A stretch of DNA of 64,000 nucleotides from Entoloma clypeatum (Eukaryota > Basidiomycota > Agaricomycetes > Agaricales > Entolomataceae). The stretch is taken from positions 2,728,001 through 2,792,000 of the forward strand of contig OY751495.1 in NCBI GenBank assembly GCA_963565915.1. Direction: 5' to 3'. Of this stretch, positions 14,709-59,170 are shown in pieces; positions within the stretch are counted from its first letter, which is position 1; each line of letters opens with the position of its first letter. The notes under the pieces were generated by a model. That model ran no database searches and was not told the origin of the DNA. It saw nothing but the letters and a program-made list of their open reading frames with translations. Position numbers and translations under genes: made by a program.

Positions 14709-14710
14709 TA

Positions 14711-14981
14711 AGAGATAAAACAAGACACATGAATGATGAGCAATGATCGGGAGTAGCGATGAAGGATGAATGGAAACAAGATGAATGATAGTACCTGTAA
14801 TCCGACGTGCGGAGTAGCGGATGGGGGCGGAGTCGTCGGATGCGGAGAGGCGGATAAGATGTCGGAGACAGCGGAGACAGCGGAGACAGCGGATACGATC
14901 GGAGGACGTCGGAGATGGTGGAATAGAAAGGAGAGGAAGAAAGGAAAGGAAAAGTAAAAAGTGAAAGTGGTTGCCCTTACA
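14711..14981 (-). repeat. Truncated 3' LTR of Gypsy C
   Basis: Matches the right LTR from its internal TAAGAGATAAAAC to the end GGTTGCCCTTACA; about 178 bp of the other end is missing beyond the Tc1 insertion. It holds many CGGA motifs, including a tandem CGGAGACAG triplet near 14864-14890. The end coordinate is accurate to within about 1 bp. Confidence 0.85.
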
Positions 14982-14992
14982 TCACCCCCCCT

Positions 14993-16314
14993 TCAAGGCA
15001 CGGCGTCTCGACGTGTCAGGCGAAACGAGTCGAATATCGCGGCGGTGATCCGCCGCGGAGCTCCCGGATGGCATCGGTAGAAGTCTCGGACTAGGCGCGG
15101 AGCGTGGACATTGTCTTCTGCTTCCCAGGAATTCTCTTCGTAGCCATATCTCTTCCATTTGACCAAGAATTGAAGCTTGCCTCAATGCAGTCGGCTGTCC
15201 AAGAGGTTTTCAACAGCATACTCCAATTCTTCTCCGACTACCGTCGGAGGCGGAGGAGAGTGGACTTGGCATCGGAAAGGGTCGTCAGGAACTAGTGAAA
15301 GTTTGACGACATGGAATACTGGGTGAACGCGGGACATGGAGGGGGGAAGGCAAAGTTCGTAGGCATGTGTTCCGACAGGTCGGACCACTGGGAAAGGGCC
15401 TACGTATCGATGTGCAAGTTTCTTTGTGGGTCGGGTGGTTTTGAGGTCTGATGAGTCTAAAAAGACCTTGTCCCCCGGGCGGAATGTCGGAGTGGTGCTC
15501 CGATGCTGGTTGTAGTATCGCGCCATGTCGTCTTTTGCCTTTGTCAGTGCTGCGCGAGCCTCCTCTAGAGCGGACTTCATCCGCTGGCTGAAATCCACTA
15601 CTGCCTCAATCTCCGTCCGCTTCTCGCGAGGTTCGAATCCCATGCGTGGATGGCGGCCGGTGTCAATGTAGAATGGAGTTTGACGTGTCGATGCGTGAAC
15701 ATGGTTGTTGTATGCAAATTCCGCCATCGGAAGCCATTCGTCCCAATTGTCTTGACGTTCATTGACGAATAGGCGAAGGTATTGTTCCAATCCTTGATTG
15801 ACCCACTCCGTCTGTCCATCCGACTGCGGATGGTAGGCTGTCGAGGCAGCAACCTTAATGTTAAGCAGCCTGTATAGTTTGCGCGTGAACTTGGCGACAA
15901 ACTGTGGTCCTCGGTCGGAGCCAATGGCCTCCGGTAGTCTGTGGAGTTTCCAGACATTTTGAACATAGGAGCGTGCAGTCCCAAGTGCGGAGATGTCGGA
16001 GTGCGTCGGGATGAAGTGTCCCCGCTTCCCTACTGAGTCCACTACGACCATGATAGCGTCGTAGCCGTGGGCTTCTGGTAGTTCAGTAATGAAGTCAACA
16101 CTGGTTACTTGCCATCGCTCTGTGGGGACCGGTAGCGGATTGAGCTCTCCAGAGGGCGGAGTGCGTCGGACCTTGGTGCGGAGGCATGGGTCGCATGTCT
16201 TGCAATATTGACCTATTAAACGAGACATGTGTGGCCACCAGTAATTGCGCGACACCAGTTCCAAGGTTTTCCACCGTCCAGGATGTCCGGCCACTGGAGT
16301 GTCATGATGTTGTG
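14993..16314 (-). pseudogene. Gypsy C pol, part 2: integrase and broken chromodomain
   Basis: 370-codon open frame plus its in-frame continuation. Integrase zinc-finger HPGRWKTLELVSRNYWWP and CKTCDPCLRTK, core motifs TSVDFITELP, SDRGPQF and SDGQTEWVNQ with the catalytic D, D and E, then HRYVGPFPVV. A chromodomain follows (LEYAVENLLDSRLH), is interrupted by TGA at 15182-15184, then continues in the same frame with QFLVKWKRYGYEENSWE to a stop near 14993. The stop is compatible with CGA to TGA. Copia-1 removes the N-terminal codons; across the insertion site the frame reads through HWILTQ and HHDTPVAGHPG when one TTGTG copy is removed. Confidence 0.88.
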
Positions 16315-16627
16315 TGTTGAAACTTTTCCATCACATAGATTAGATTAGATTAGATTAGATTATATCACGTGACCTTAGACATCTTCGATTACATACTTAT
16401 TTGGTTGGTACAAACAGTAGTACGGTATATAAGACCAGGAAACTGTCAATATCAACAAGTTGTCTCTTGACTCTTAACCAGCTCCATCGCTCTTACCAGC
16501 CTCAACCGCTCTCACCAGCCTCACCCCTCCAAACCATGTAAGTGGCTAGAACGGTTATGTAGAGTACTTCCACTGTAGCTGTGTTGCTCAGTACATCTGT
16601 GGCTAGCGCCCAGGTGGAACTTCAACA
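16315..16627 (+). repeat. 5' LTR of Copia-1
   Basis: 313 bp from TGTTGAAAC to CTTCAACA, so the ends are inverted TGTTGAA/TTCAACA. It carries a (TTAGA) microsatellite near 16335-16362, a TATATAAGA box near 16434, and a CT-rich stretch with repeated ACCAGCCTC. It matches the Copia-2 and Copia-3 LTRs closely. Confidence 0.95.
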
Positions 16628-16640
16628 GGTTATGGGCCCC
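16628..16640 (+). promoter_or_regulatory. Copia primer-binding site, half-tRNA(iMet) type
   Basis: GGTTATGGGCCCC begins directly after the LTR. It is complementary to GGGCCCATAACC, the anticodon arm of eukaryotic initiator tRNA(Met), with CAT as the anticodon. This agrees with the cleaved half-tRNA primer known for Drosophila copia. The same sequence follows the 5' LTR of Copia-2 (minus strand, 40409-40421). Confidence 0.75.
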
Positions 16641-16993
16641 GGATAGCAGAGGGACCTGGGAACGCTGGCAACAGCAAGTACCTGCCCACTCTACCCTGGT
16701 TGGCAAAGAACCGATCGAAAGATCTAGGTTCTGAGTCATACTTCTTCACATATGAACCTGGGAAACGTCATTACGACAAGTACCTGTCATGAAGCGTCCC
16801 TAAGGGGATTGACTTAGTACACATCATGTGGAAAAGTCGATCGTTCCTCATACACTTCTGACACACAAAAGGGTTTTTCCCATGACCGCTATTCCTGAAG
16901 GGAATATGTCATGAGGAATCATTTACTTGTTTTTCTCAAAATCAAATTCATTATCACTGATTGGGAAAAAACCCTTTTTCAGATTCATTAACA

Positions 16994-19900
16994 ATGTCTA
17001 CCTCTCGCTCTGCTCTTGACATCATCACCCCCTTCGACGGCATCGACTACCAAAGCTGGGCCGAAAGGATGAAGTCCTACCTCCTCCATCAAGGAGTCTG
17101 GCGCCTTGTTTCTGGCGACATCCCCCGCCCTGTCATCGCTGATTTTACCACCACGGTCTCCACCCCTGGGGCCACTGCTGCTGCTCCCCCTGTGCTGGCT
17201 ACCATGGTCGACCAGCCCGGCTTCCGCAAGGAAGAAAAAGCCTGGATCAGGGACGACGACGTAGCTCTCGGTGCGATATGCCTGAAGGTCTCTGAGGCGA
17301 TCAGACGCCACATCAAAGACAGCACCTCGGCGCTTGACGCATGGGCAGCGTTGAAGGATGCCTATTCCAAGGTATCCCCGGCCATCATCTTCGGCGACTT
17401 CAAGGCCGCCGCCACATACAAACTATCTGGACGCGACCCCGTGCCTGAAATCGAGCGCCTAGGGTCACTCTTTGCTCGTCTCAGCGAGTCGAACTTCGAC
17501 GTGCCCGACATGATGCAAGCAATGATCCTTGCCAACGCCATCCCTGACGCATGGTCCTCGCTCTCCACCGCTCTCTTCCAGGTGTACGACGCTGACGACT
17601 TCACGTGGAAAGGAGTTGCCGAAAGCATCATCTCGGAATACAGGCGCAAGTATTCGGTCAGGTCTACTCATGCGTCCAATGAGCAGGCCCGGAAAATTTC
17701 CGGGACAAAGCGAAAGGGGCAGGACCCCAAATGGGAAAAGCAGCAAAAGCCGAGTACCTCGCAGAACGATGCTGACGAGCAGCCTAACTCGGCTGACCCA
17801 AGTACCGCTTCTGAAAAGAAGAAGGGAAAGGGACGCTGGTGCAATCAGAAGAAGGGAAAGGGACGCTGGTGCAATCAGAAGAAAAGTGCTAACAATGCAG
17901 ACAACACGTCCGACCATGTGGAAGAAACAGTCGAGTTTGTTGCTCCTGCCATCCACTTCCCCCCTCTTCCGGCACCGTCCTTCATCACCGTCACTGGCCG
18001 CGGGAAAATGACAAGTACCGCACAGCCCGATTCCGGAAAAATGCAGTCGCTCCTGCAACGCATGAACCCGCCTCCTTCTCAGTACACCAGACTTCCATCT
18101 GGAAAACCGTCTGTGTGGAAAAAGAACGATCATGTCCGTAAACTCGCGCGGAACATTGGTGCTCGTCCCTCAGGGTCAAACCTTCGAATTCTGGATACGA
18201 TTATCCCAGAAGAAGATGGAAGACCATCCAAGCAGCGTCGAGTCACTCCGCCTTTGGATGACTCCCTCAGGATGATGGACATAGACCATCAAAGCGAGCG
18301 GATGGGGCCGGAACAATTCGAAGATGGGCTGATTGAACTTGACGGTTCGTCACATTCTTCTCTCAAACTTGACCAAATGGGAAACACTAATAATCACACA
18401 CAGACATTTGAATATACATTAGCTAGTACCAATGCAGATAGTATAGATCTCTTTAGTGATGATCTGTACAAAAAATATATCAAACATTTCGCGTCCTGCA
18501 CACACTGCAAAGAGAGAGAACGCGCTCAGTGGATCTTAGATTCCGGCGCATCATTACACTTTACCCATGAGTTTAAAGACTTCGCGTACTACAGGCCTCT
18601 CAAGGCTAAGCGATTTGTCCAAACAGCTGCAAAGGGAAAGAAACTGGAAATTCTCGGAGTTGGAGCCGTTCCAGTATGGCATACCCTAAATGGGGAAGTA
18701 AAAACTCATCTTCTCCGACCTGTATTCTACATTCCGGACATGGACACACGCCTATTGTCCCTAGGCGTCTTCCTTAATCACGGTTACAAAGTAGACGGAA
18801 TGCGTGGAGAAATCAACATCTCCAAAGGACAGAACAAAATACAGTTCTCGCCTCACATTCTCGGACAAACCATTTATTGGTTAGACACTGAAATACGCTA
18901 TGACCAAATCCACACGATCTCTAGCAAAATCACTGTCGAAACCTGGCATAAACGCCTTGGCCACCCAAATAACCAGGTGCTCAACAAGATTCCCACCAGT
19001 ACCAAAGGAGTACCCAGAACGTTAGTACGTGAGAAATCACAGGAAAGCTGCACGGGGTGTCTAAAAGGGAAAATGCCGAATCAATCTTATTCTAACTCGA
19101 TGACGAGGGCTGTCAAACCCTTTGATTTGATCCATTCGGATTTAAAGCAGATATCCACGGCATCGTACCATAAGTACAAATGTTTTTGGATGATTTTTCA
19201 TCCCATGTCTGGGTCGTCTTGCTTAAAAAAAAGTCAGGCGCCATCACGGCGCTGAAACAATTCCTTGCGATGATCCAGAATCAATTTGCCGCTACCCCTA
19301 AAAAATGGCGGGTTGATGGAGGTGGAGAATTTGATGAATACAAGGATGTACTTGCCGATCATGGAATTCTGATCGACGTCACACTCCCATATCAGCATCA
19401 GCAGAATGGTAGAGCAGAACGGATAAATCGAACTCTGTGGGAAAAATCTCAGGCATTACGCTTCGACGCATGCTTACCACCTATGTGGTGGGAATTCTGC
19501 CTGGAACATGCAGCATTTCTCTACAACAGAACCCCCATGCAGCGTCTTGAATGGAAAACCCCTCACTTCAAAGTGACCAATGAGATTCCCGACATGTCCA
19601 GCGTCAGAGTCTTCGGATGTCAGGCATATGTATATATCCCAAAGGAGAAACGAAGGAACTCCCTGGAGTCAAGGTCCCGACTGATGATTTATCTCGGATC
19701 GAAACCAGGGGTCAAAGGATACCGCTTCATGGATCCTGAGACCAATACAATTTTCATGGGTGGAAAAGCTATCTTTGATGAAAGCAAGTACCCTAGATGC
19801 CACATCGACCCTTTGCCAGAAAACCATCCAGAAATGGAAAACCCAGAGCCAGCTGATGAGTTTGAGGATCTCATTCCCGGCAGCAATGATGACGATAGTC

Positions 19901-21741
19901 ACAACGAAACACCTCATGACCCAGTTCGCATTGAACAGGATCAACCTGAATCAGACAACGAACTGCCTGCCAATGAGCCTGATGACGAACCGTGAGTACC
20001 CACTCCGGAACCCGAGCAAGTACCAGATCGACCGATCAGGGAACGACGAGTTCGGAAGATGCCAGGAAGCATCTATGGGGAAGACACTCCAGCGTCTGAT
20101 CTTGAAAAATTAGATCGAAGACGGAGATTGGGCGGTCAAACGGCATGGATGAATGACCTCCTGATGGAGGCAATATCAGTCCAAGTTGGCATCGTTGAAA
20201 TGTCCCATAAAGACATATACCCTCTTCCAAATAAAGAAGACTGGTATGCGGCTGAACGTAAAGAACTAGACATGCTCAAACGCCGCGGGGTGATCACGGA
20301 GCTAGTACCCCTGCCTGCAGGAAGGAAAGCTCTAAGGAACAAATGGGTTTACAACGAAAAGTCCGACGGGCGTCTGAAAGCACGCCTCGTCGCAAAAGGC
20401 TTTTCACAGGTAGAAGGGATCGACTTTGATCAGATCTTCTCACCAGTCGTGAGATATGAAACTGTCTGACTAATACTGGCATTGACAGCCCTTGAAGGGT
20501 GGTTCATGACACTCTTGGACGTCTCATCAGCCTTCCTCTATGGAACGCTCCTTGAGGTAATCTACATGCGACAGCCTGAGGGCTACATAGTAAAAGGGAA
20601 AGAACACCTCGTGTACCGACTATACAAAGCCTTATATGGACTTAAGCAGGCCACATTAGCCTGGTGGAGAGAACTTGATTCCTCCATGAAAAAGCTTGGC
20701 TTTGTCCGGCTTCACTCCGATGCGGGAGTGTTCATTCACAAAAGTACCAATGGGGAAATTGTAATCGCCGTCATCTATGTCGACGACTCTGCTTTTCTCG
20801 GCACAAACCGGGAATATACGCTAGAGAAAAAGAAGGCCTTCATGACCACATGGGAATGTAGGGACCTAGGGCACCTTGTGCCTGGTGGGGAACCAAAAGA
20901 GTTTCTTTCAATCCAGATAAGGCAACATGGGAAGAGAATCTTCATTGATCAAGTACCTTACCTTGAAAAAATACTCACACGCATGGGGATGAGTGAATCC
21001 AATGCGACCCATACCCCACTCCCTACGGGCTACAAACCCATGGCGTCCGAAGATCAACCTAATGCGGAACTCCGATCCAAGTACCAATCCGTCATCGGAT
21101 CACTCCTATATCTGATGATCGGAACGAGGCCTGACATCTGCTTTGCCGTAATCAAAATGTCTCAATTTTCCGCAAATCCCACCAAACGCCATTTAGAAGT
21201 GGCTAGGGATATTTGCAGATATTTAAAAGCAACAAAAGATTATGCAATCATGTATGATGGGGACTCAGGGAAAGGGATCTATGCGTTCACAGACTCCGAC
21301 TGGGCATCAGATGAAAACACGAGGAGGTCTACCACCGGCTTCTTCATATCACTGGCGTCTGGAGCGATAACATGGGTCTCATCGGCGCAAAAGACCATCG
21401 CCCTCTCTTCTACAGAAGCAGAATATATGGCGCTATCAGATTGCAGTCGCGCAGCAACATGGCTGAGAAGCATGCTCGCCGAACTTGGAATGCAGATCGG
21501 ATCAGTACCGATCTATGGAGATAACAACGGCTCCGTCTTTATCGCATCCAACCCTGTGACTGAGAAGCGATCCAAGCACATCGACGTGCGATTCCACTTT
21601 GTCAGAGAAAAAGTATCTGAATGCATTATCACGGTCGAATTCATTGAAGGAGTGAATAACCCTGCAGACCTTTTAACTAAGAATCTGGGGAAAATCCTCT
21701 TCAACAAGTTTATCCCGTACTTCGGATTACTAAAAAACTAA
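16994..21741 (+). pseudogene. Copia-1 gag-pol, frameshifted and with two stops
   Basis: Start at MSTSRSALD (16994), shared with Copia-2. Gag (to about 18510), protease WILDSGASLHFT (about 18531), GAG-pre-integrase HKRLGHP and CTGC follow in the first frame to 19255. A 10-nt deletion near 19185 compared with Copia-2 moves the integrase (VDGGGEFDEY, NGRAERINRTLWE) to another frame (19180-19992). TGA at 19993-19995 and TGA at 20467-20469 stand where Copia-2 has CGA. RT (YVDDSAFLG) and RNase H (STEAEYMAL) follow to 21741. There is also a tandem duplication of GKGRWCNQKK in gag. The same three lesions occur in Copia-3. Confidence 0.93.
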
Positions 21742-21809
21742 GACGAAGAAAAGTACCTATATGGGAAAAAGTAAGATGTATTTAGAAGTATGTACTAAAT
21801 ATGGGGGGG

Positions 21810-22117
21810 TGTTGAAACTTTTCCATCACATAGATTAGATTAGATTAGATTATATCACGTGACCTTAGACATCTTCGATTACATACTTATTTGGTTGGTA
21901 CAAACAGTAGTACGGTATATAAGACCAGGAAACTGTCAATATCAACAAGTTGTCTCTTGACTCTTAACCAGCTCCATCGCTCTTACCAGCCTCAACCGCT
22001 CTCACCAGCCTCACCCCTCCAAACCATGTAAGTGGCTAGAACGGTTATGTAGAGTACTTCCACTGTAGCTGTGTTGCTCAGTACATCTGTGGCTAGCGCC
22101 CAGGTGGAACTTCAACA
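21810..22117 (+). repeat. 3' LTR of Copia-1
   Basis: 308 bp, the same as the 5' LTR less one TTAGA unit. It is followed by TTGTG, the target duplication, and then the Gypsy C reading frame. Confidence 0.95.
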
Positions 22118-24562
22118 TTGTGTGAGGATCCAATGACGCAGTTGGGGATTGTTAGGAACATAGATACGATCCCTGAAGTAGAGCAAACCTTCCGCTTGCC
22201 TCCACTCCGCACTACGGACGGATCCCGCTCCGACGGTCGGAAGGGATTTGACGACCTCCGCCACACTATCCTCCAGTAACCCCTCTCGGATTCCCTGTCG
22301 GACCTGGCGGAGGACGTCGCGTTCTTCCCCTTGAACAGTTACCCACGCATTGCTCGCACTGCAAACAATTCTGGTCGAAGAAGGATGATGTTTTCGTTGT
22401 CCCGCGACAGGGTGCCACTTACTGTCCTCTGTTGGTTGGGACAGTACTGCTCCGGTTGCAAAGTCCGAGCTATCCGCTTCTATCCGCCACTCCTTTCCAT
22501 GATCAGCTAAGACCAGGATCGGAGCGGATGTAATCCTCCGCTTCAACTCCGCAAATGCGGACACTTCTCCCTCCCTCCAAGACCAGAGGTGCCCTTTCTT
22601 TGTGAGCTCGAAAAGAGGGCGCACGATGTCCGAAAACCCTTCAATAAAACGGCGATAGAAGTTAGTGAATCCCAGAAAGGACTGTACTTCTCGGACGTTT
22701 GTCGGAGCAGGCCACTCCACAACCCCCGCTACCTTCACCGGATCCATCTCTATGTGTCCTTGTTCAATAATAAGGCCTAGGTATTCAATGCGCGTTTGTT
22801 CAAACTCGCATTTCTCTGGTTTTAGATAGAGTTTGTGTTCGCGAAGTTGTTCCAGTACAATCCGTGTGACTCTCCGATGCTCCGCAAGGGTCTCCGTAAA
22901 GATGAGTATGTCGTCGAGGTAAACACAGACTACACCTTCAGTGATAAGGTCCTGAAAGATCTTGTTCATCATAGTCTGGAATGTGGATGGACTATTAGTG
23001 AGGCCGAAGAACATCACCAATGGTTCATAGAGTCCGTGATTGGGACGAAAGGCAGCCTTCCACTCGTCTCCGGGTTTTATCCGCACATTGTTGTAGCCCC
23101 AGCGGATGTCGAGCTTGGTGAAGTATTGAGTGCGTTGAAGTTTATTGATCAGTTCGGATATGAGTGGAAGCGGATACTTGTTTTTGATAGTTTTGGAATT
23201 GAGTGACTGGTAGTCTTGTACAAGACGAAGCGAGCCATCCTTCTTCTTGATGTAGAATACCGGAGATGCCATCGGAGACTTGGAAGGGCGGATCCGACCA
23301 GTTGCAAGGTTTTCCTCCAAAAACGCGTCGAGTTCCTTCTGTTTGTTCGGAGCAAGCGGATATACCTTACACCCCACCGGAGAGGCGTCCGAAACAAGTT
23401 CAATGGCGTGGTCCCAAGTCCGCTCTTCCGGTAAGGTGTCGAAAGAGGTCTTTGAGAATACGTCTTCGAAGTCAAACAAGTGGTCTGGTACAGAGTCGCG
23501 GAAAGATTTAGGTTTTTGGTTACTGAGGAAGGCCTCCGATAGACGTTGCGAGATATTGGATGAAGCGCGGATGAACTCCGCCTCCGCGGGAACTGTTCCG
23601 ACAAAAAGGCGGTCTCCCTCCTCAAACTCATCCTCTTCCTCATCGTCTTCCGCTAACTCCTCCGCTTCTTCTCCTTCTGTGACATCCTCCACCCATGGGC
23701 CGTGTGGAGCCTCCTCCTCTAGACCAGACGTCGGAGTGGAACCCACCCGACAGGCTCGGATGTGGACTTGTTCAAACTTCCGCTCCTTCCGCTCTTGGGC
23801 TGCCTCTTGGTGGCATGTCCGGCATCGTGCAGGACACCGGCTCATCTTCACTTCCCCTGACGTCCAATCTACCTTGGGGTTGTGTTCCTTGAGCCAAGTG
23901 AAGCCTAGCACAATTTCTTGTTTTCCCAAACTTGTGACTGCAAGCTGGGTCCGTTCCGAGTGATCCCGATAGCGGAGCACTACATCCAACACCTCCGTTA
24001 TTGCTCCGGCCTCGTTTGGAGTTCCGTCGATGTTGTATACCGGAATTGCGCGTTGTAGTTTTCGAGTAGAGAGTCGATGTTTCTCGACCAGAGTGTGTTC
24101 AATAAACGACCCTGTTGCCCCGCTGTCGAGTAAGGCCTTTTGTGATAGTGTGTCTTTGGTGTCGGTAGTTTCAAGAACTATGTCTAGTTCAATAGAATTG
24201 TCGGAGTGAGCGGAGGCGAGGACATATTGTTTTGGAAGCCGACGCTCCCATTTAGAGAGGTGAAGGCGGATGGGATTTGTGGAGTTGGGTGCGACTATGG
24301 GATCATTTGCAGGCTTAGAGATGGAGGGTATAGGATCATATTGTTCCATAAATAAGGCAGCATAACGATTTTTAGCAGACAACGAGGGCGCACTGTTCAC
24401 TCGCTGTGGGGAGGAAAATCCTCCTGTCCTTCCTCCAACTCCGCAGACTCCGTGGGCAGAACGGAGTTGCCTTCCGCTGCGTCCTTGACCACGAGTTGTT
24501 CCATAACAAACTCGTCCTGCTCCTCCGTTGTCATGAAGCGAACGTCGAAGCGAAGGGGGCAT
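22118..24562 (-). pseudogene. Gypsy C pol, part 1: protease and reverse transcriptase
   Basis: A roughly 815-codon frame. It overlaps the end of gag, holds a protease with ALLDSGATGSFIE, an acidic linker (EGEEAEELAEDDEEEDEFEE), and an RT with FYIKKKDGSLRLVQDY, FTKLDIRWGYNN, VMFFGLTNSPSTFQ and YLDDILIFT. RNase H begins (RIEADSSDFATGAVLSQ) but after SKWHPVA the sequence jumps to a segment unlike RNase H, so most of that domain appears deleted. The frame ends in HWILTQ at the Copia-1 insertion and then reads a few bases of its LTR. Confidence 0.88.
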
Positions 24563-25535
24563 TCACGACTAAAGTGACCCGTTTTGTTACATCTGAAGCA
24601 TGCATTGGCATTCTTGCCTTTGACGCGTGAAGTATCAATGTCCATTGCATTGGGGTCCCTTGTCGGCGGAGCGGAGCTGTACGCGGAGTGAATGGAATGT
24701 AGGGACGAGGGAATACTGAGGTGCCAGGTACTCTTGGTCCGACAACATTGCGGAAGGCGGAGGTGCGGGTCGGAGCAGTGGCTTTGAAGGCTTTGTTGGC
24801 AATCCTATTGTCATCATTGACTCGTGTTGCAGAGTACCACTCATCGGGGTTGTCATCCGCAGGTCGTCCGTGGGTCAGGGTGGCAATCTCATTCTGAATG
24901 TCGGAACGGAGACCATGGCGGAATTTGAGTACAATGTTGGTATCCTCCTGATAGCCCGCTTTGTCAATGTAGTCTTTGAACTCGTCAATATAGGTCTCGA
25001 CATCCCGTTGACCTTGATAATAGGATTCTCCTTCGAGGATCAGTCTCGCGTCCTGTTCCTCATTCTTCGGAGTGAACTCCGCTGTAAAGACTGCACGGAA
25101 GTCCACCCAAGTCCGATAAGGCGGAGCACCGGTCCTCCGCTCCTGTCGGATAATGCGATCCGCAAAGCGTGCTGCACGTCCACTCTTCATGAAAGATAAA
25201 GCCCAATAAATTTTAGCGTGGTCGTCTGCGAACTGTTCCGGAGCCAGCCCCATAAACAATTCACAGGAGTTTAGAAAGGTCCAGCCATTTGCGCGCGATC
25301 CATCGAAGTCCGACGGATTGGCAGGTTTTGCTCAACGCATGCCCGGATTGGCCGGAGCGAGCGGAGCAGGTATAATAGTGGGTGCGGGAGCAGGTGGGAT
25401 AGGTGGCGGAGCTGGGGCAGGAATTGCGTTGAAGGCGAGGAGGAGTTGGTCAAGTTGAGTCGAGATATCAGTGAGAGTTTGACGTTGTTCCTGGAACTCG
25501 TGCTCGAGCTGTTCAAGGCGATTGGGGTCGTCCAT
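24397..25535 (-). pseudogene. Gypsy C gag, with nonsense and frameshift
   Basis: Begins MDDPNRLEQLEHEF at 25535 with a coiled-coil-like and proline-rich N-terminus, then a TGA at 25332-25334 (after NPGMR). The capsid region continues in the same frame (MGLAPEQFADDHAKIYWALSFM, VETYIDEFKDYIDKAGY). Near 24650 a frameshift separates it from the zinc knuckle frame (24397-24645), which has CFRCNKTGHFSREC and an acidic tail. All lesions prevent a full gag from this copy. Confidence 0.85.
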
Positions 25536-25683
25536 TACTATGCGCGGAGTAGAATCACCAGTTACGGAGAGGTAATTAGAAGAATTGGAAGGGTGTGAGA
25601 TGTATCGGAGTCGGACGCAGACGAAGCTACTCCGAAGCATGGAATTGTGACAACGATGCAATCGGACCCGGTCCAATTAGATG

Positions 25684-25693
25684 AGAACTTTCT
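25684..25693 (-). promoter_or_regulatory. Self-priming primer-binding site of Gypsy C
   Basis: On the minus strand the 5' LTR is followed by GT and then AGAAAGTTCT. The LTR contains its reverse complement AGAACTTTCT (plus-strand 25814-25823), 32 nt downstream of a TATTTATC box (plus-strand 25848-25855). Same layout as in Gypsy B, E and G. Confidence 0.7.
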
Positions 25694-25695
25694 AC

Positions 25696-25959
25696 TGTAA
25701 GGGCAACCTTACGATCCAAGACTCAAACTCAGATACTTGCAAGGGAGATCCAAAGTTTAGATTGAGCAGTCTGATAAGTAATACAACACACACCTTGCAA
25801 GGGAGATCCGAAGAGAAAGTTCTAAGGATTCCCCTGCAAGCTAGCGAGATAAATAGTAAAATGAGATATGAAATAAGAGATAAAACGAGACACATGAATG
25901 ATGAGCAATGATCGGGAGTAGCGATGAAGGATGAATGGAAACAAGATGAATGATAGTAC
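25696..25959 (-). repeat. 5' LTR of Gypsy C, left portion
   Basis: Starts TGTAAGGGCAACC, which is the inverted complement of the far end GGTTGCCCTTACA (33407-33419). A repeated CTTGCAAGGGAGATCC occurs twice (near 25735 and 25795). Interrupted by Gypsy E after GATAGTAC. Confidence 0.85.
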
Positions 25960-26504
25960 TGTCACGTAGTGTGTTTCTCAACGTCGGAAAACGTCGGATG
26001 AGTCGGAGCGGAGTAGCGGAGGAGCGGATGCGATAGATACAATGTCTGGCTGAAAGGACCTGGCTTCAACTTGTGCATTGCGCCCCACTCTTTGACGTGG
26101 TCCTCGATTTCGGATTGGCGGATGTCGGATGAGCAGATGAGCGGATGAGCGGAGGCGACGGAGAGAATGCTCAGAGGCAAGTGGAGACGGATGCGAATGA
26201 GGTGTAACGTATGATATTTGAACTGAGGTTCTATGACAGGTTTGGTACACTATTTATAATAAACTAGAATGATCAGTATTACTATAAGTGATGTGCAGAT
26301 ATCGGAGTTGACCATCGGAACATTTGGAGTACGGAGAGTAGCAAATGAAAAGTGAACAACATATGTCTACTTGTAAGTATGGTTGAGATGTTATGTAGTA
26401 GAAGTATAATCAAATATAAATAGAATCTCGTCGGAGCGGATGTCAGATCGGATGAATCGTTGGAGTCGTCGGATAAGTCGGATAAGAATTGTATGGTTAT
26501 GACA
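25960..26504 (-). repeat. 3' LTR of Gypsy E
   Basis: 545 bp, TGTCACGTAG to GTTATGACA. By hand count it holds 21 CGGA motifs, all on the plus strand, with no TCCG. It differs from the 5' LTR at 12 positions, all CpG versus TpG or CpA. It also lies immediately upstream of the antisense gene and could supply that gene's promoter. Confidence 0.95.
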
Positions 26505-26634
26505 GTATTTCCCTCTTAGGGCCGAACCCTGAGGCCCAGATGAGGTAATCCACGTGACCGTTGGTTGAAAAGCTTGTGCGTGATTTTTCTCTCTTGTCAC
26601 CCAACCACAACATCTATCCCGACGCTTATCCGCC

Positions 26635-27638
26635 ATGTCCGCTGAGAACTCACCCCTCGCCACTCTCCGTGCTGAAAGGGAGCGCCAGAAGAAGGTCACC
26701 GAGGAGTTGGAGAGGAAGCTGCAGGAGGCAGAGGAGTGTGCGAAGGAAGAAGCAGAGCGCGTGGAGGCAAAAAAGGCGGCGAAAGAGCGGAAACGAGCAG
26801 AGAGGAAGGCAGAGAAAGCGAAGGCGAAGGAGCCGGTTGCGGGTGCAGATGCGGGTACGGATGCAGATGCGGATGCGGAGGTGAAGAGGGTCAAGCTGCA
26901 GGGAGTTTTCAAGGATATGCCTGCGAGTTACGAGCAGGGAAAAGAGGATTGTACCTCCTGCTTGAAAGCGGGGGACTTGTGTTTTTGGCCATCGGAGTAA
27001 GTTCTCTCTTTTTCTTTATACGCTTCATTATTAACTTGTTCCTTAGGAATGACAACGCTTCGTCATGCTGGCGGTGCCAGCATCTTAAACGGAGCTGCAG
27101 AACGGGAGCGGAAGCGGAGTCGGAGGTGAAGCGGAGGATGACCAAGGCGGTGAGGGTCGGAAAGACCAAGGTGGGGGGTGGTACAACAAAGAACGCGAAG
27201 GCGGGGTCATCCAAGGGAGAGGGGACCGTGGAGGGATTGCGGATGGCCGCAGCGTCGGAGGAAGTGGAGGTCATGCCGGAGGGGTTTGGTCCGCCGGAGG
27301 TGGTCATCGGGTTGGAGGTAGTGAAGGGGTTAAAGAACATGGTGAGGGAGATGCGCATGATAAAGGTGGAGTTGAAGGAATTGCGGGAGATCAGGGAGCT
27401 CCTGATGGTTATCGCATGGAGGGGGAAATCGGAGGTTTCGGAGGAAGGATCCGACGAGGACGAGGATGTGGAAGAGTATGATAGGGTATTGGAGGAGTTG
27501 GCAAAGGAGGTTGAGAAAGAAGAAGGAGAAGAAGAAGAAACGAAGAAGCGGAAACGGATGGAGGAAGCGGATGAGGAGTCCGGATCGGAGTGGAACAAGG
27601 AGATGGAGGGGGTATCTAACAAGAAACAGCGAAAGTAG
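26635..27638 (+). CDS. Spliced Zn2Cys6-like coiled-coil protein carried antisense in Gypsy E
   Basis: Two exons, 26635-26996 and 27047-27638, joined by a 50-bp intron (GTAAGT...TTAG) give 954 nt, 317 residues plus stop. Without splicing exon 1 ends at TAA within the intron. The intron splits a cysteine cluster: C106, C109, C116, C128, C131, C138, spacing C-x2-C-x6-C-x11-C-x2-C-x6-C, which fits the fungal Zn2Cys6 DNA-binding pattern. The loop between C109 and C116 (LKAGDL) is less basic than usual, so DNA binding is not certain. The N-terminus is a long charged helix (residues 10-66, K/E/R-rich), and the C-terminus is coiled-coil then acidic and basic tracts, ending NKKQRK, a possible nuclear signal. 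It ends 49 bp before the pol stop, tail to tail. Function unknown; regulation of the element is an inference. Confidence 0.75.
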
Positions 27639-27687
27639 TTTTTTGTTAGTGTAAATATACAATAGATTTTTTTTTTTTTTCTTCTTG

Positions 27688-29064
27688 TTACAAGTGCGAT
27701 AATGGGCCTGGTTTAGTTGGTTGAGCGGAGTGGAAGTCCGCTACCATATCCGCTGCGTGTTCAAGCTCGGATGCGGGCAACCAAGAAAACTCTTCACTGG
27801 TGTCTTCATAACCTAACCAGTGGATGAGGTAAAGGAGTTTGCATCGTCGTCTTTTATCGATTTTTGAGTCGACGATTTCTGCAATTTCGTATTCGGTTTC
27901 TCCTTCAATCTCGAGCGGAGGCGGAGGAGATTGTATCTGATTCGGAATCTCGTTAGGAGTTGCTGGTTCGAGCATAGATATGTGGAAGACGGGGTGTATA
28001 GCATGCATAGTGTCGGGTAGACGTAGTGTAAAGGAGTGCGTGCCGGGTTGGGCTATGATTTCAAATGGGCCAGCATATTTGTCGGATAACTTTTGGGTGG
28101 GTCGTGTGGTGCGGAAGAACTTGGCTTTAACAAAGACTTCTTGTCCGACGCGGAGCGGAGGAGGCGGAGAACGTCGGACGTCCGCAGGGCCTTGATAACG
28201 TTGTTGTGCCTCTGCGACGGCAGTCTTTAGTTCTTGATGAAGTTCGTCTAAGTCGACGACATATTGTCGAGCTTTGTCAGATGCTAGATCACGTTCCGGA
28301 TGGAGTGTAATGTCGGGATGATAACCTTTGTTGGCGAAGAATGGTGATACACCAGTAGTGGCACTCGGAGTGTTGTTGTAAGCGAACTCCGCAAGCGGAA
28401 GCAAAGCGGACCAGTTGTCTTGCTGGTAGTTGCAGAAGATGCGGAGGTATTGTTTGAGTGTTTGATTGGTGCGTTCGGTTTGACCATCGCCTTCAGGGTG
28501 ATATCCAGAAGTGAAGTGAAGTCTCATGTCGAGGGCTTTTGCAAGAGAGCGGAAAAAGCGGGAGATGAATTCAGGTCCATGATCGGATGTGACATTTTGC
28601 GGAACTCCGTGCTTGGAAAAGACGTGAAGCACGAAAAGGTTTGCTAGGTCTTCGGATGTGCAATTAATGGTGGTAGGGATGAAGATGCCTTGTTTAGTGA
28701 GGTGGTCTACAATGACCAGAATCACATCGGAGCCAGCGGATGTCGGAAGGGGTTCAATGAAGTCCATGGAAATAGAATGCCAGGGACGTTCAGGAATAGG
28801 GAGTTGTTTAAGCAGACCGTAGGGTTTATGACATTGGGGTTTGGCGCGCATACAAGTGGTACATGACTTGCAATACTTTTTGACGAAGTCGCGCATTCCA
28901 GGCCAAGTGTATTCTCGTTGGATAAGACTAATAGTCTTATTCTGACCAGGGTGTCCAGCGAGGATATGGTTGTGCTTATTGCGGAGGATGCGAAGACGGA
29001 GGTCGGATGAGTCAGGAACATAGATACGTCCATTGTGGAGTAGATAACCTGCTTCATTCACGAT
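27688..29064 (-). pseudogene. Gypsy E pol, part 2: integrase and intact chromodomain
   Basis: In-frame continuation after a TGA (29065-29067). Integrase zinc region GHPGQNKTISLIQREYTWPGM and CTTCMRAK, core motifs SMDFIEPLP, SDHGPEFISR and DGQTERTNQTLKQY (D, D, E), then KLSDKYAGPFEIIAQPG, and a chromodomain (YEIAEIVDSKI, LYLIHWLGYE, FSWLPASELEHA). The domain is complete, in contrast to those of Gypsy B and C. The protein would end PTKPGPLSHL. Taken alone this part looks functional. Confidence 0.88.
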
Positions 29065-31373
29065 TCAGCGTGGATTAGGATTGTTGAGGAAAGAGGTGTA
29101 AATGGGGTCAGTCGGAAGAGCGGAGAGGATGTCGGAGCGGAGTTGATCCGTATCCATGATGATTGTGGCACGGAGGACGGGCATATATAACTCTGTTGCG
29201 CGAAGTGAAGTGGTGAGCTGTTCTTGTGTGAAGATGGGTTTGAAGTTGCTTGGATTGGTGGACGAATAGTCGCTATTTCCCTCTTTAGGGTAGACGTCCC
29301 ATCGTCTACTTAAAAGATCGGGTTTCGTACCTAAACGGCCAGGGCGGAAGCGGATGACGAGATTGAACTGGCAGAGGTATTCGGACCAACGAGCTTGTCG
29401 ACGTGATAAAACCTTGGTAGTAGAAAAGTACTCAAGATTTTTATGGTCCGTTACGACATCGATCGGAGCAGCGGAGCCTTCAAGGTAGTGACGCCAAACC
29501 TTGAATGCATCATGGATCGCTAATAGTTCTTTGTCGTGGGTGTCATAGTTTAACTCAGGAGGTGTAAAGGTGTGGGAGTGGAAAGCGACCGGATGGATTT
29601 TGTCGTCGGAGGTGCGGATGGAGAGAATCTCACCCAAAGCGTAGTCGGAGGCATCGGTTTCGACGATAATAGGGCTGTCAGGAATCCAATGCGTAAGAAC
29701 AGGTGCCGTGATAAAGGCTTTCTTCAAGGTGTTGAAAGATTCGCGAGCGGAGTCGGAGAAGTGCCATTGTGTGTTTTTGCGGGTGAGTCGGGTTAGCGGA
29801 ACGGTGATTTCGGAGTAGTAAGGAATGAATCGACGATAAGAATTGGCAAAACCTAGGAAAGATTGAATATCTTTGACCTTCCTTGGTTCAGGCCAATCTT
29901 GAATAATTTTGACTTTCTTATCCGACATGCGGAGGCCGGTCGGAGAGAGGATAAAGCCAAGGTATTCAACAGTGTCCGTAGAAAACTCGCATTTGTCTGC
30001 GCGCGCATATAAACCATGTTGTCGGAGACGTCGGAGGACTTCGCGGACATGCTTCCGATGCTCAGAAGGAGAGTCGGAGTAGATGAGGATGTCGTCGAGA
30101 TATATGGTAACATACTTATCGAGCAGGTCATGGAAGATGTCGTTCATGAAGCGTTGAAAAATGGCTGGGGAGTTGGTAAGTCCAAATGGCATGACAAGCC
30201 ATTCAAAAGACCCATAGCACGTGCGGAAAGCGGTTTTCCATTCATCTCCTTCCGCTATGCAGACGAGGTGATAGGCGTGTCGGAGGTTGAGAGCCGTATA
30301 AACACTGGCTTTTCCAGCGGTCTGGAGAAGGTCGGATATGAGCGGAAGCGGATATCGGTCCTTCTTTGAGATTTTGTTGAGACCACGGAAGTCGACGCAA
30401 AGACGAAGGGAGCCATCCTTTTTATGAACGAAAAGGACGGGAGCACTGTGCGGAGAGGAAGAGGGTCGGATGAATCCAATGGTGAGATGTTCGTCAATGA
30501 ATTCATGGAGGGCATCGAGTTCGGTTTGTGAAAGGGAGTAGATCGGACCGAACGGAGGAGCGGAGCCCTCTTCGAGTTTGATCTTGAGGTCGTAGGGACG
30601 GTGTGGTGGAAGTGTATCTGCTTTTCCTTTACTGAAGACGTCAGCATAGTCGTGGTATTCCTCGGGTATGTTTGTCAAGTCGGGGGTGTCGGAAGCGGAT
30701 GCGGAGTGAGCGGAAACGGAGGGAGTCGAAAGGTGAAGTCGAAAGTGTGTACCAGGCAATTTGCATGCCATCAAAAATGCGGCTGCGTTAATGAGTGAAA
30801 TCTGCGGAGCGGATTGCGGAGGTACGATCGGAGGTTCCGGAGGAGGAAGCGTAGCTGTCCTACCTTGGGAGGAGGTCGACGTCGATGTCGGAAACGGCTC
30901 TTTTTGCATCTGTGGACAGAAAGTGATACTGCCCAATACCCAGTCAATCATAGGATTGTGGCGGGTGAGCCAGTTGTATCCAAGAACCACGGAAGAAGCG
31001 GAGTCGAGCGGAGTAACATAAAAATCCTGTTCAAAGGTTTCACCTGAAGGAAAACATATAGGTATTGTTACAACTTGAGTGATAAACGCGTTAGAAGAAC
31101 CATCGAAAAGCTTTAGTTCTAAAGGTGGAATAGCGGAAGTCGGAAGATCATAAGCGGAGGAAAAGTTATTGTCAATAAAACAGTGGGTAGATCCTGAATC
31201 AATAAGTGCTGGGACAGAATCTGAAGAGAAAAAAGAGGATGAGATATTGATGCGTAAAGAGTTCGGATCGGAGAGAGCGGACGCGTTAAGTCGGATGGAA
31301 GCGGAGGCACGGAGAGAGTCAACACAGTCCTCAGACCGTGCTTCATGAGGACCACTGCCTATTTTTTGACTCG
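29065..31373 (-). pseudogene. Gypsy E pol, part 1: protease, RT, RNase H
   Basis: The frame opens within the gag tail in another register and includes a protease (ALIDSGSTHCFID near 31190, ending VVLGYNWLTRHNP), an RT with LFVHKKDGSLRLCVDFR, YTALNLRHAYH, VMPFGLTNSPAIFQ and YLDDILIYS, and an RNase H (VETDASDYALG, DHKNLEYF, KPDLLSRR). It ends with NPNPR and TGA at 29065-29067. Since the next codons stay in frame into the integrase, this is a single nonsense change and not a frameshift. Gag and pol overlap in different frames, so a ribosomal frameshift is expected. Confidence 0.88.
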
Positions 31374-32640
31374 ATCTCCTTACCTTTTTCCTTGGCTTGA
31401 GTGCCGACTTGAGCGGCCTTCCCTTTAGCCTTGGAAGCGGAGGAGGTGGACTTGGGACAGTCCTTGACAGCGTGTCCGACGCTACCGCAGAATAAGCAAA
31501 GGTTATTATTGAAACGATGTTTGCGTTCTTGATACGTCAGTTTGCCATCTTTGCCTAATTTACTGGAGAGGTCGGGTTTCGGAGCGGATGTGGAAGCGGA
31601 AGCGGTAGCAGGGCGGATGGTTTGGCTGATGATGTTTGTGCGGTGGATTGGTTCGGAGTGGATTGTTTCTTGTCAGACTTGGGAGTGGGTTTATCGGTTC
31701 TGGATTTCTCTCGTTGACGTTCCCAGTAGCGAGTGTCAATAGTATGAGCCGCGGATCGCAGGTCTGGTAAGGACTTGATCTTGGGCTGTTGGGAGAGGAT
31801 GTCCTTGATCCGATCTGGAAGTCCGACGTAGTAGCGGTGTCGGAGGGAGTTTTCATCCCAGTCAGTCTTGGTAGCAAGTCGTTGGAATTCAACATTGTAC
31901 TTCAAAATCTTTTGGTTTTCCTTCATCCGCAGGTTGTCCAATTGTTCTTCGGCTTCGCCCTGAGGGTCAATGGTACCAAACTCGGAGCAGAGAAGTCGGA
32001 CAAAGTCGGGGAAAGAACCCCGCCAATTGGGTTCATCATCATCAAGAATGAAGGGTTCAAAAAATTCGAGTGCTGTGCCTCGGAAATAGGACATGGCAAA
32101 GTTGACTTTGGAATGTTTGGAGTTGAAGTTGTTGTTGTCGGAGAAGTAAAGTTTGCATTGTAAAATGAATGTAGAGAGTTTGCGCGGATCGGATCCGTCG
32201 AAGGTATCTGGTTCGTTGGCATACAACTTTTTCTTCTTAGTGTCACGACGTTTCAACTCTTTGGTCATGAGCAAAATGGCTTCAGCTAGGTTGGGTTCCT
32301 GATCCGGATTGGAATCGGAGTCGTCCAAATCTCCATGTAAACTACCGTCGGAAGGAGGAGGAGATCCTCCTGGAGGTCCGCCGAATATGCCAAAATTTAG
32401 AGGTGAGGGTTCCGTTGGTGGGTTTGGAGGGCTGGCGGGAAGTGGTGGAAGCGGATCGGTAGAAGGTGGAGGAACGGATAGTCCGGGGGTAGGAGCGGAT
32501 GTTGATGCTGTGGTTCTTCGAGGAGTAATAGTTACATTGCGGGTTCCTCGAAGGAAAGCAGAGCGTGGAGTGGAAGATGAACGTTCTGCTGCTGCACAAG
32601 CAGTCCTAGTTGTTCGAACTGTATTACGGGTTTGAGACAT
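31343..32640 (-). pseudogene. Gypsy E gag, frameshifted before the zinc knuckle
   Basis: Starts MSQTRNTVRT at 32640, shortly after the LTR and leader. A serine/threonine- and proline-rich N-terminus is followed by a retrotransposon gag domain (RKLSTFILQCKLYFSDNN, KVNFAMSYFRGTALEFFEP, YYVGLPDRIKDILSQQPK). The first frame ends at 31555, but the zinc knuckle CLFCGSVGHAVKDC lies in another frame (about 31465-31505) that closes with TGA at 31343-31345. A one-base indel near 31620 would account for this. The knuckle matters for RNA packaging, so this copy would lack it. Confidence 0.82.
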
Positions 32641-32678
32641 GTGGGTAGAGGTTGTTGGGTAAATCAAAGAATGGTGGT

Positions 32679-32689
32679 AGTTCAAATAT
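32679..32689 (-). promoter_or_regulatory. Self-priming primer-binding site of Gypsy E
   Basis: Minus strand: the LTR is followed by GT and then ATATTTGAACT. The LTR contains the reverse complement AGTTCAAATAT (plus-strand 32946-32956), 34 nt downstream of TATAAATAG (plus-strand 32982-32990). The match is 11 of 11 with the 2-nt offset typical of Tf1/sushi elements. Confidence 0.78.
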
Positions 32690-32691
32690 AC

Positions 32692-33236
32692 TGTCACGTA
32701 GTGTGTTTCTCAACGTTGGAAAACGTCGGATGAGTCGGAGCGGAGTAGCAGAGGAGCGGATGCGATAGATACGATGTCTGGCTGAAAGGACCTGGCTTCA
32801 ACTTGTGCGTTGCGCCCCACTCTTTGACGTGGTCCTCGATTTCGGATTGGCGGATGTCGGATGAGCAGATGAGCGGATGAGCGGAGGCGACGGAGAGAAT
32901 GCTCAGAGGCAAGTGGAGACGGATGCGAATGAGGTGTAATGTATGATATTTGAACTGAGGTTCTACGACAGGTTTGGTACACTATTTATAATAAACTAGA
33001 ATGATCAGTATTACTATAAGTGATGTGCAGATATCGGAGTTGACCATCGGAACATTCGGAGTACGGAGAGTAGCAAATGAAAAGTGAACAACATATGTCT
33101 ACTTGTAAGTATGGTTGAGATGTTACGTAGTAGAAGTATAATCAAATATAAATAGAATCTCGTCGGAGCGGATGTCGGATCGGATGAATCGTCGGAGTTG
33201 TCAGATAAGTCGGATAAGAATTGTATGGTTATGACA
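32692..33236 (-). repeat. 5' LTR of Gypsy E, with promoter
   Basis: 545 bp, with TATAAATAG (minus strand) at 32982-32990. Like its partner it is packed with CGGA on the plus strand, arranged in clusters at both ends of the LTR and between the TATA box and the gag end. Confidence 0.95.
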
Positions 33237-33419
33237 AGTATCTGCGATCCGACGTGCGGAGTAGCGGATGGGGGCGGAGTCGTCGGATGCGGAGAGGCGG
33301 ATAAGATGTCGGAGACAGCGGAGACAGCAGATACGATCGGAGGATGTCGGAGATGGTGGAATAGAAAGGAGAGGAAGAAAGGAAAGGAAAAGTAAAAAGT
33401 GAAAGTGGTTGCCCTTACA
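33237..33419 (-). repeat. 5' LTR of Gypsy C, right portion
   Basis: Continues the C LTR after the Gypsy E insertion and ends GGTTGCCCTTACA. About ten CGGA motifs in 183 bp. Immediately followed by Gypsy D sequence beginning GATAG. Confidence 0.85.
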
Positions 33420-56719: not shown

Positions 56720-57848
56720 TAGTGATGGACAAGGGTACACAAAACCCTCAGAGTTTTGGGGAAGGGTAAGGGAGGGTAAGGGTGAGGGTCAGAATTTCCT
56801 ACCCTCCGAAAACCCGTACCCTTCCGAGGGGTTTGGTTTGTCACGTGGTGTTTGGTTGAGCCAAACAATCAACGATCAACAAGTTGAAGTTGATGTAGAT
56901 ACTTTTCTTCCCCCCACTCACGCCCAACGGCGTCGACTCGTGCCTCACGGCTCCACTTCGCGCCCAACGGCTCCCACTAACACCCAACGGCGTCAACTCA
57001 CTCCCAACGGCGTCGACTCGCGCCCAACGGCCCCCCTTCGCGCCAAACGGTCCCCATTGACACCCAACGGCGTCGACTCGTGCCTCACGGCCCCACTGCG
57101 CGCCCAACGGCTCCCACTAACGCCTGACGGCGTCGACTCGTGCCCAACGGCCCCCCTTCGTGCCTAACGGTCCCCAGTCGTGCCCAATAGCCCCCCTTCG
57201 CGCCCAACGGTCCCCCTTCGCGCCCAACGGTCCCCCTTCGCGCCCAACGGCTCCCACTCGCGTCGACTCACGCCCAACGGTGTCGACTCGTGCCCAACAG
57301 TCCCCCGTCGGGCCCAACGGCCCTCCGTCCTGCCCAACAGCCCCCCCTTCGTGCCCAACGGCCGGCACTCGCGCCCAACGGCCCCACTTCGTGCCCAACG
57401 GCCCGCACTCACGCCCAACGGCGTCAACTCGCGCCCAACGGCGTCGACTCGCACCCAACAGCCCTCACCATCCCATATCCGCCCACTGCCACCACCTACC
57501 CGTCCGCCAAATGGCGCGGGAGGCGAAGGCAGTGGCCAGAGAAGGGGAGGTGGGCTAGGAGATCCACGACGGCGTGTAGTACATGATGGGACGCGACACG
57601 ACGCGCACGTGAGGAGCAAGGGGGGGAGGGGTCGTATGTGCACCCCCACGTCCGCGATGGCGCGCAGACAGGACGCGTAGCACCCTACCCTTGGTGCCGT
57701 CCCGCGGGTATTCCGTACCCCTGCATACCCTCGAAAACCCCCACCCGTAGGTGGGGGGTTTCCTTACCCTTGACGAGGGGTACGGTTTTTCGAGGGTAGG
57801 GGTACGGATACAATTCTGGTACCCGCGGGTTACCCCTGTCCATCACTA
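56720..57848. mobile_element. Non-autonomous hAT-type element with a 20-bp minisatellite
   Basis: Ends TAGTGATGGACA and TGTCCATCACTA form a terminal inverted repeat. The 8-bp TCGGTCTC occurs at both sides (56712-56719 and 57849-57856), and the Gypsy F LTR provides the empty site, so borders are firm. An 8-bp duplication with such ends is the hAT signature. Subterminal zones are full of GGGTA/TACCC repeats (56750-56830 and 57685-57835). The core (about 56925-57470) is the CCCAACGGC minisatellite. No transposase. Confidence 0.88.
56925..57470. repeat. 20-bp minisatellite array, locus 2
   Basis: About 27 units of 20 bp such as GCGCCCAACGGCGTCGACTC, with variable second halves (GTCGACTC or CCCCCTTC). 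Related to loci 1 and 3. Confidence 0.85.
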
Positions 57849-58743: not shown

Positions 58744-59170
58744 TGATTGGAGGCTGTTGGGGACAAGGGGCAGCCGTTGGGGACGAGGGGAGGCCTTTGA
58801 TGGCGAGGGGCGACCGTTGGGGACGAGAGATGGCCGTTGGGCGCGAGTGGAGGCCGTTGGGCACGAGGGGCAGCCGTTGGTGACGAGAGACGGCCGTTGG
58901 GCATGAGTGGAGGCCGTTGGGCACGAGGGGCAGCCGTTGGGGACGAGGGGAGGCCGTTGTGTACGAGGGGTGGCCATTTGGCCCGAGGGACGGTCGTTGA
59001 ACACGAGGGGGTCGTTGGACACGAGGGGAGGCCGGTGACCGTTGGGGGCGAGGGACGGTCGTTGGGCACGAGGGGCAGTCGTTGGGGCGAGGGGTGGTCG
59101 TTGGACGGAAAGGGCGGCCGTTGAGCGCGAAGGAAGGTGGTTGGGCCCCGTTGGGCAGGCCGTTGGACGA
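58744..59170. repeat. 20-bp minisatellite array, locus 3
   Basis: Units of 20 bp such as GTTGGGGACGAGGGGAGGCC; reverse-complemented they give GGCCTCCCCTCGTCCCCAAC, the same family as loci 1 and 2. Left side is truncated by the gap. Confidence 0.85.

Follow-up and report, generated by a model that had tools for sequence, protein, structure and literature searches.

Why would an LTR retrotransposon carry a spliced gene on the strand opposite to gag and pol, and what might the product of such a gene do? The question is raised by a 7.3-kb Gypsy element, here family A, in the window, the 64,000-nucleotide stretch of Entoloma clypeatum DNA that we analyzed (GCA_963565915.1, contig OY751495.1, positions 2,728,001-2,792,000, forward strand). 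Its gag and pol lie on the minus strand, and the initial annotation placed a plus-strand gene between the pol stop and the 3' LTR, in which a canonical 50-bp intron (26997-27046) separates two exons that together give 317 codons and six cysteines spaced C-x2-C-x6-C-x11-C-x2-C-x6-C. The ORF, its strand, its extent (26635-27638), the intron and the spacing were all borne out (Table 1). The same is true of the claim that only splicing makes the cluster, since a stop within the intron closes the frame of exon 1.

Table 1. Features of the Gypsy A element, its antisense gene and the Gypsy D stretches compared with them (window coordinates unless a locus is named)
Feature	Position	Strand	Remarks
3' LTR of Gypsy A	25960..26504	-	from self-comparison, boundaries and motif counts
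Candidate TATA box, sense (genomic) RNA	26251..26258	-	TATAAATA on the minus strand
Candidate TATA box, antisense mRNA	26415..26422	+	220 bp upstream of the ATG, within U3 of the 3' LTR
Polypurine tract adjoining the 3' LTR	26505..26520	-	read from the sequence
Antisense gene, exon 1 (362 nt)	26635..26996	+	charged, helix-like N terminus; first cysteine half C-x2-C-x6-C, codons 26950-26982
Antisense gene, intron (50 bp, phase 2)	26997..27046	+	GTAAGT...TTAG; branch-site-like TTAAC at 27031-27035, by eye
Antisense gene, exon 2 (592 nt with stop)	27047..27638	+	C-x2-C-x6-C of the second half, which is basic, at codons 27066-27098, then an acidic tail and the basic end NKKQRK
pol of Gypsy A	27688..30990	-	broken once near 29061-29065 in the window copy; sense strand TCCG-loaded
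gag region of Gypsy A	31555..32697	-	as open in the window copy
5' LTR of Gypsy A	about 32692..33237	-	97.6% identity to the 3' LTR
Gypsy D, stretches loaded with TCCG and CGGA	L093:156-6258; window 22112-25950 and 14709-16340	both	

The antisense gene and its host element

The antisense gene stands tail to tail with pol, its ORF ending 49 bp from the pol end at 27688, and it starts 130 bp inward from the 3' LTR. This layout is common to all 20 full-length copies of family A, in which pol ends 46 to 49 bp from the end of the ORF and the 3' LTR lies on the opposite side. Because the sense RNA alone is copied back in LTR replication, an antisense intron would never be lost by retrotransposition and the gene would stay spliced. 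Among the 15 full copies with a repeat pair, four (L016, L018, L020, and L026) have 100% identical LTRs, indicating that family A moved recently. A-type gag carries a CCHC knuckle of its own, as seen in the gag ORF of L012.

Two opposed TATA box candidates lie in the LTR of family A, and each was found in 21 of the 21 copies scanned, with the sense one displaced by an insertion in L021. The minus-strand candidate may be a promoter element of the sense RNA and the plus-strand candidate one of the antisense mRNA. In the LTRs of the two sister families described below, these opposed boxes, the antisense one included, were not found.

The surroundings of the element are a set of nested insertions (14709-33419), in which a Copia element (LTRs at 16314-16627 and 21809-22117) interrupts Gypsy D. 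The A element in turn splits the 5' LTR of D, whose pieces share about 5 bp at the break, in the manner of a target-site duplication. Elsewhere in the window, 56892-57502 and 58744-59030 are each occupied by an array of diverged repeats spaced 20 bp apart.

Conservation and selection in family A

Copies were sought in the genome (60 Mb, 20 contigs). We aligned 60 of them, namely, the window copy, 39 others from a first DNA search (the best 40 of 145 candidates were scored, all of them matches, the window among them), and 20 more diverged copies picked from searches with the exons. From 150 candidates, exon 1 returned 144 match rows, and exon 2 returned at least 153, with 150 of 162 candidates scored; some copies yield several rows, so that the copy number of family A is inexact.

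The six cluster cysteines are kept in 359 of the 360 cells of this alignment, and a seventh, at residue 35, in 8 of 55 copies. The donor GT is present in 60/60 copies and the acceptor AG in 59/60. The ORF was kept in other copies of the element: it is intact, with the 50-bp intron, in 32 of the 40 best-matching copies (leaving out L041, whose frame is open only if a spurious 66-bp intron is assumed) and in 9 of the 20 more diverged ones. Stops occur in exon 1 of 4 and in exon 2 of 11 of the 60 copies. When indels are counted per copy against the window, intron included, 140 of 162 are multiples of 3, as are 34 of 52 distinct events. The copies share ancestry, so that such counts do not amount to independent trials; an independent test comes from comparing families A, B, and C. 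A 173-aa minus-strand ORF partly opposite exon 1 contains a stop in 8 of the 60 copies, and a 237-aa minus-strand ORF was ruled out as a real gene, with a stop in 53 of them.

Selection was estimated as pairwise omega (NG86), without correction for CpG decay. Ten pairs among diverged A lineages (L001, L009, L010, and members of the major clade) gave values of 0.18 to 0.34, which indicate purifying selection between these lineages. Ten pairs within the major clade gave 0.29 to 1.15, with the closest pairs at about 1, as expected for changes that arise after insertion. For eight comparable pairs of the same elements, omega was 0.13 to 0.55 in pol and 0.14 to 0.55 in gag, leaving out the misaligned pol and gag rows of L012-L023 (dS near 0.8).

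In six of eight pairs, divergence within the element was highest in an exon of the antisense gene, the exceptions being L001-L009 (part of pol) and L012-L027 (the middle of gag-pol). Between the window copy and L012, dN was 0.071 in the antisense gene versus 0.021 in pol, and, pair for pair, the synonymous distance of the gene was roughly double that of pol (0.239 versus 0.117 for window-L012). CpG-type transitions, taken without polarization, make up 975 of at least 2,127 changes listed relative to L012 in 56 A copies, and the inner stops in the matches to both exons are most often TGA. These transitions, about half of the changes, together with the TGA stops are a signature of decay by methylation.

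The gene in two sister families

The antisense gene is not a single case, as it is carried by three Gypsy families of this genome. Searches with pieces of pol led to Gypsy B, which matches at 71 to 74% at the pol end and at 79 to 80% in the other piece, and to Gypsy C, which matches at 81 to 82% in that other piece. We examined the 3' regions of 21 loci (L068-L088; 9 B and 12 C), and 19 of them, all 9 of B and 10 of C, contain a spliced antisense gene model at the same place as in A. The model ends early in L078 (B; 206 aa) and starts late in L086 (C; 192 aa), and the start codon of the B gene is uncertain. With exon 2 as the query, B yielded 150 rows (170 candidates) and C at least 152 (150 of 248 candidates scored).

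The B and C genes are strongly diverged from that of A, and the cysteine cluster is the part best shared in profile comparisons (E values of 1.7e-7 for A-C, 1.2e-4 for A-B, and only 0.009 for B-C). Two CX2CX6C halves with a loop between them are present at 9/9 B and 10/12 C loci, the loop being x11 in A, x10 in B, and x8 in C; in L071 and L084 (C), an internal deletion has removed the cluster and left both gene ends. In all three families the intron lies between the third and fourth cysteines in phase 2, at codon C3+5 in A and C3+4 in B and C. Its length varies freely and not in threes (46 to 59 bp in B, 49 to 53 bp in C) while the flanking exons stay open, which is good comparative evidence for removal of the intron, and splicing of the antisense gene appears well supported. 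Omega within B was 0.20 and 0.25 (L068-L077 and L075-L077) and, at lower dS, 0.61 and 1.73; within C it was 0.47 to 0.51 in three distant pairs and 0.29 and 0.35 in two close ones.

Two other families lack the gene. Gypsy D has no room for it (in L093, pol ends at 5810 and the LTR starts at 5822), and a cluster motif of its own was not found. In Gypsy F, no antisense cluster gene was found in the 1.8 kb examined; a 122-aa sense ORF lies between the pol end and the 3' side (L094:752-1120). As far as comparison of sequences goes, these results establish that three Gypsy families have a spliced coding gene under purifying selection, antisense to pol and tail to tail with it.

A probable permuted zinc cluster

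The initial annotation had further read the cluster as matching the fungal Zn2Cys6 pattern. The spacing of the cysteines fits; the standard profile does not recognize them in their natural order. A Pfam scan of the whole A protein found no Zn_clus, bZIP, or other domain above the cut-off, and weak matches to PSI_integrin and ADD_DNMT3 were rejected as under it. Against Zn_clus (PF00172; curated cut-off, 21 bits), the cut-out A domain scored 14.4 to 15.0 bits in two pieces, the better of which aligns the second half of the A domain with the first half of the profile, and the B and C domains scored 7.9 and 13.1. When the halves were exchanged, with a loop length of our own choice, each family gave one continuous match, with 23.6 bits for A (25.7 for the R133 form), 16.6 for B, and 19.1 for C, so that A is the one family above the cut-off. 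The highest score among six exact shuffles of the exchanged A string was 15.6 bits, and among ten hand-typed decoys with the cysteine frame it was 14.8; for Gal4 the same exchange lowers the score from 48.8 to 38.6. The basic residues also lie in the second half and not in the first (LKRSC in A, GKRVC in B, DKKKC in C).

The ordinary Zn_clus model has 18 matches in the genome, and the window gene is not among them. A sequence search of the PDB gave three weak matches, none with a zinc cluster, and scans of IMG/VR with each exon found no relative. We consider the motif likely to be a binuclear zinc cluster with permuted halves; the known Zn2Cys6 fold is close to two-fold symmetric, which would allow such a permutation. 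Because the order of the halves and the natural-state score do not fit, we do not file the A protein as a Zn2Cys6 member, and it may well work like one.

CGGA and TCCG loading

The half-site classically bound by Zn2Cys6 proteins is CGG. On the strand of the antisense gene, the LTRs of A, B, and C contain 21, 28, and 20 copies of CGGA (3.1, 6.9, and 3.6 would be expected); the corresponding TCCG counts are 0, 5, and 0. CGGA is the most over-represented word in the A LTR, and extensions of it lead in B and C; CGGA is absent from three further LTRs in the window, of which two belong to related elements. The A element as a whole (25960-32688) has 147 CGGA versus 29 TCCG, with no single clear period in the spacing of CGGA.

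The loading extends into the coding regions. When all 256 tetramers were ranked against synonymous-codon shuffles, sense-strand TCCG came first in A pol (66 versus 34.2), A gag (27 versus 16.9), and the examined parts of B pol (83 versus 47.3) and C pol (66 versus 28.9), and thus the bias is not a product of protein sequence or codon usage. In nine other distinct ORFs of the window, some from related elements, TCCG ranked 77 to 221. A contrast of fourfold sites within and beyond the motifs was set aside, its conditioning being a source of bias. In Gypsy D, loading at synonymous sites affects both strands: TCCG ranks 1 in gag and in each of the two pol parts, and CGGA ranks 2 in the pol parts and 3 in gag. 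Gypsy F is not loaded. One-sided loading is therefore seen in 3/3 carrier families and 0/2 families without the gene. Since D is loaded without the gene, loading as such needs no gene in cis, and a link between CGGA and the antisense protein is one that we infer.

What the antisense protein may do

We tentatively propose, at somewhat less than an even chance, that the element encodes an antisense nuclear DNA-binding regulator that uses its cysteine cluster to bind the element's own CGGA sites and either raises transcription or shields the element from silencing. Transcription of the antisense mRNA would begin within or close to U3 of the 3' LTR and proceed into the element; the protein, with its permuted Zn2Cys6-like cluster, charged flanks, and basic C terminus, would enter the nucleus and bind CGGA in the LTRs and coding regions; and binding would raise transcription or protect the copy. 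In favor of this reading we count the same place and phase 2 intron in B and C, the omega values, the kept cysteines, the rise in Zn_clus score on exchange of the halves, and the over-representation of CGGA. Against it we count that one-sided loading of coding regions suits RNA as well as DNA, that D is loaded without the gene, that after exchange A alone passes the cut-off and with a chosen loop length, that the A-type TATA box is missing in B and C, and that 2 of 12 C loci lack the cluster.

It is conceivable, if rather unlikely, that the protein and the motif form a system of self-recognition, in which a fast-evolving protein with a permuted cluster, made from a spliced antisense transcript, would read a one-sided CGGA code that includes synonymous sites in gag and pol and activate or shield the copies that carry it. 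Gypsy D, with the code and without the gene, would then be a free rider.

A regulator of the opposite sign is unlikely, though its anatomy has a precedent. HBZ, the antisense bZIP gene of HTLV-1, is spliced and lies beside the 3' LTR, and its product damps sense transcription; the protein studied here could likewise be a nuclear feedback repressor or latency factor, made by antisense transcription from the 3' LTR. The arrangement is as in HBZ as far as examined (antisense, spliced, adjoining the 3' LTR, with opposed TATA boxes in the A LTR), and a repressor could make just as good use of binding sites in the LTR. However, the four recently active copies with identical LTRs keep the gene intact, as those with a self-limiting factor could too, and repression leaves the motif loading of coding regions unexplained.

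Two further explanations seem improbable to us. The cluster could recognize UCCG in the genomic RNA so as to package, export, or protect it. Like an RNA signal, the loading favors one strand and extends across A gag and the pol of A, B, and C; yet D is loaded on both strands, A-type gag already has a CCHC knuckle, and a CX2CX6C pair resembling Zn_clus points to DNA. To an equally low degree, we can envisage a host or shared factor that reads CGGA/TCCG in A, B, C, and D while the antisense protein acts otherwise, for instance, on host genes or host defense. This would account for D and would suit the fast evolution of the protein relative to pol, as in host conflict, but Gypsy F is unloaded and one-sided loading is seen in the three carriers and in neither D nor F. 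That there is no real gene, and that charged composition merely opened long frames on both strands of a purine-rich stretch, is refuted by omega, the conserved cysteines and splice sites, the in-frame indels, the retention in three families, and the decay of the 237-aa minus-strand ORF.

If our proposal of an activating or shielding regulator is true, fungal Gypsy elements carry a sequence-specific regulator of their own, which is kept spliced by its antisense position and whose cysteine cluster the standard model recognizes only in exchanged order. Recognition between element and host could then be tested within one genome, with one protein, one short motif, and many near-identical copies, and the same genome offers three diverged carrier families and families without the gene for comparison.

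Comparison with known systems

With the fungal Zn2Cys6 proteins (Gal4 type, PF00172) the antisense protein shares six cysteines in the order C-x2-C-x6-C-x(8, 10, or 11)-C-x2-C-x6-C, one basic half, and candidate CGG sites near its gene. It differs from them in the exchanged order of the halves, in its sub-cut-off score in natural order, and in being encoded by a retroelement. The likeness to HBZ lies in a gene that is antisense, spliced (by comparison), and beside the 3' LTR (20/20 full A copies), with a product that is probably nuclear. With regard to a start in the 3' LTR, as in HBZ, A has the TATA candidate (21/21), and none was found in the B and C LTRs. Unlike HBZ, the Gypsy protein has a cysteine cluster instead of a bZIP and belongs to a fungal element.

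Extra antisense ORFs between pol and the 3' LTR also occur in plant Gypsy elements, gene23 of Grande being an example. The resemblance is one of position, and the Entoloma gene differs in its cysteine cluster, which needs splicing, and in its occurrence in a fungus. Finally, VANC proteins are the anti-silencing proteins of VANDAL DNA transposons. If our reading is right, both systems consist of a fast-evolving, element-encoded protein and of short motifs accumulated in its own element, as the CGGA loading of A, B, and C would match, yet D, without the gene, is loaded too. On DNA methylation, which VANC-type anti-silencing removes from target copies, the observation in Gypsy A is the CpG-transition signature of its diverged copies. 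In contrast to VANDAL transposons, the Entoloma system would belong to an LTR element, depend on an antisense gene, and place its motifs at synonymous coding sites as well.
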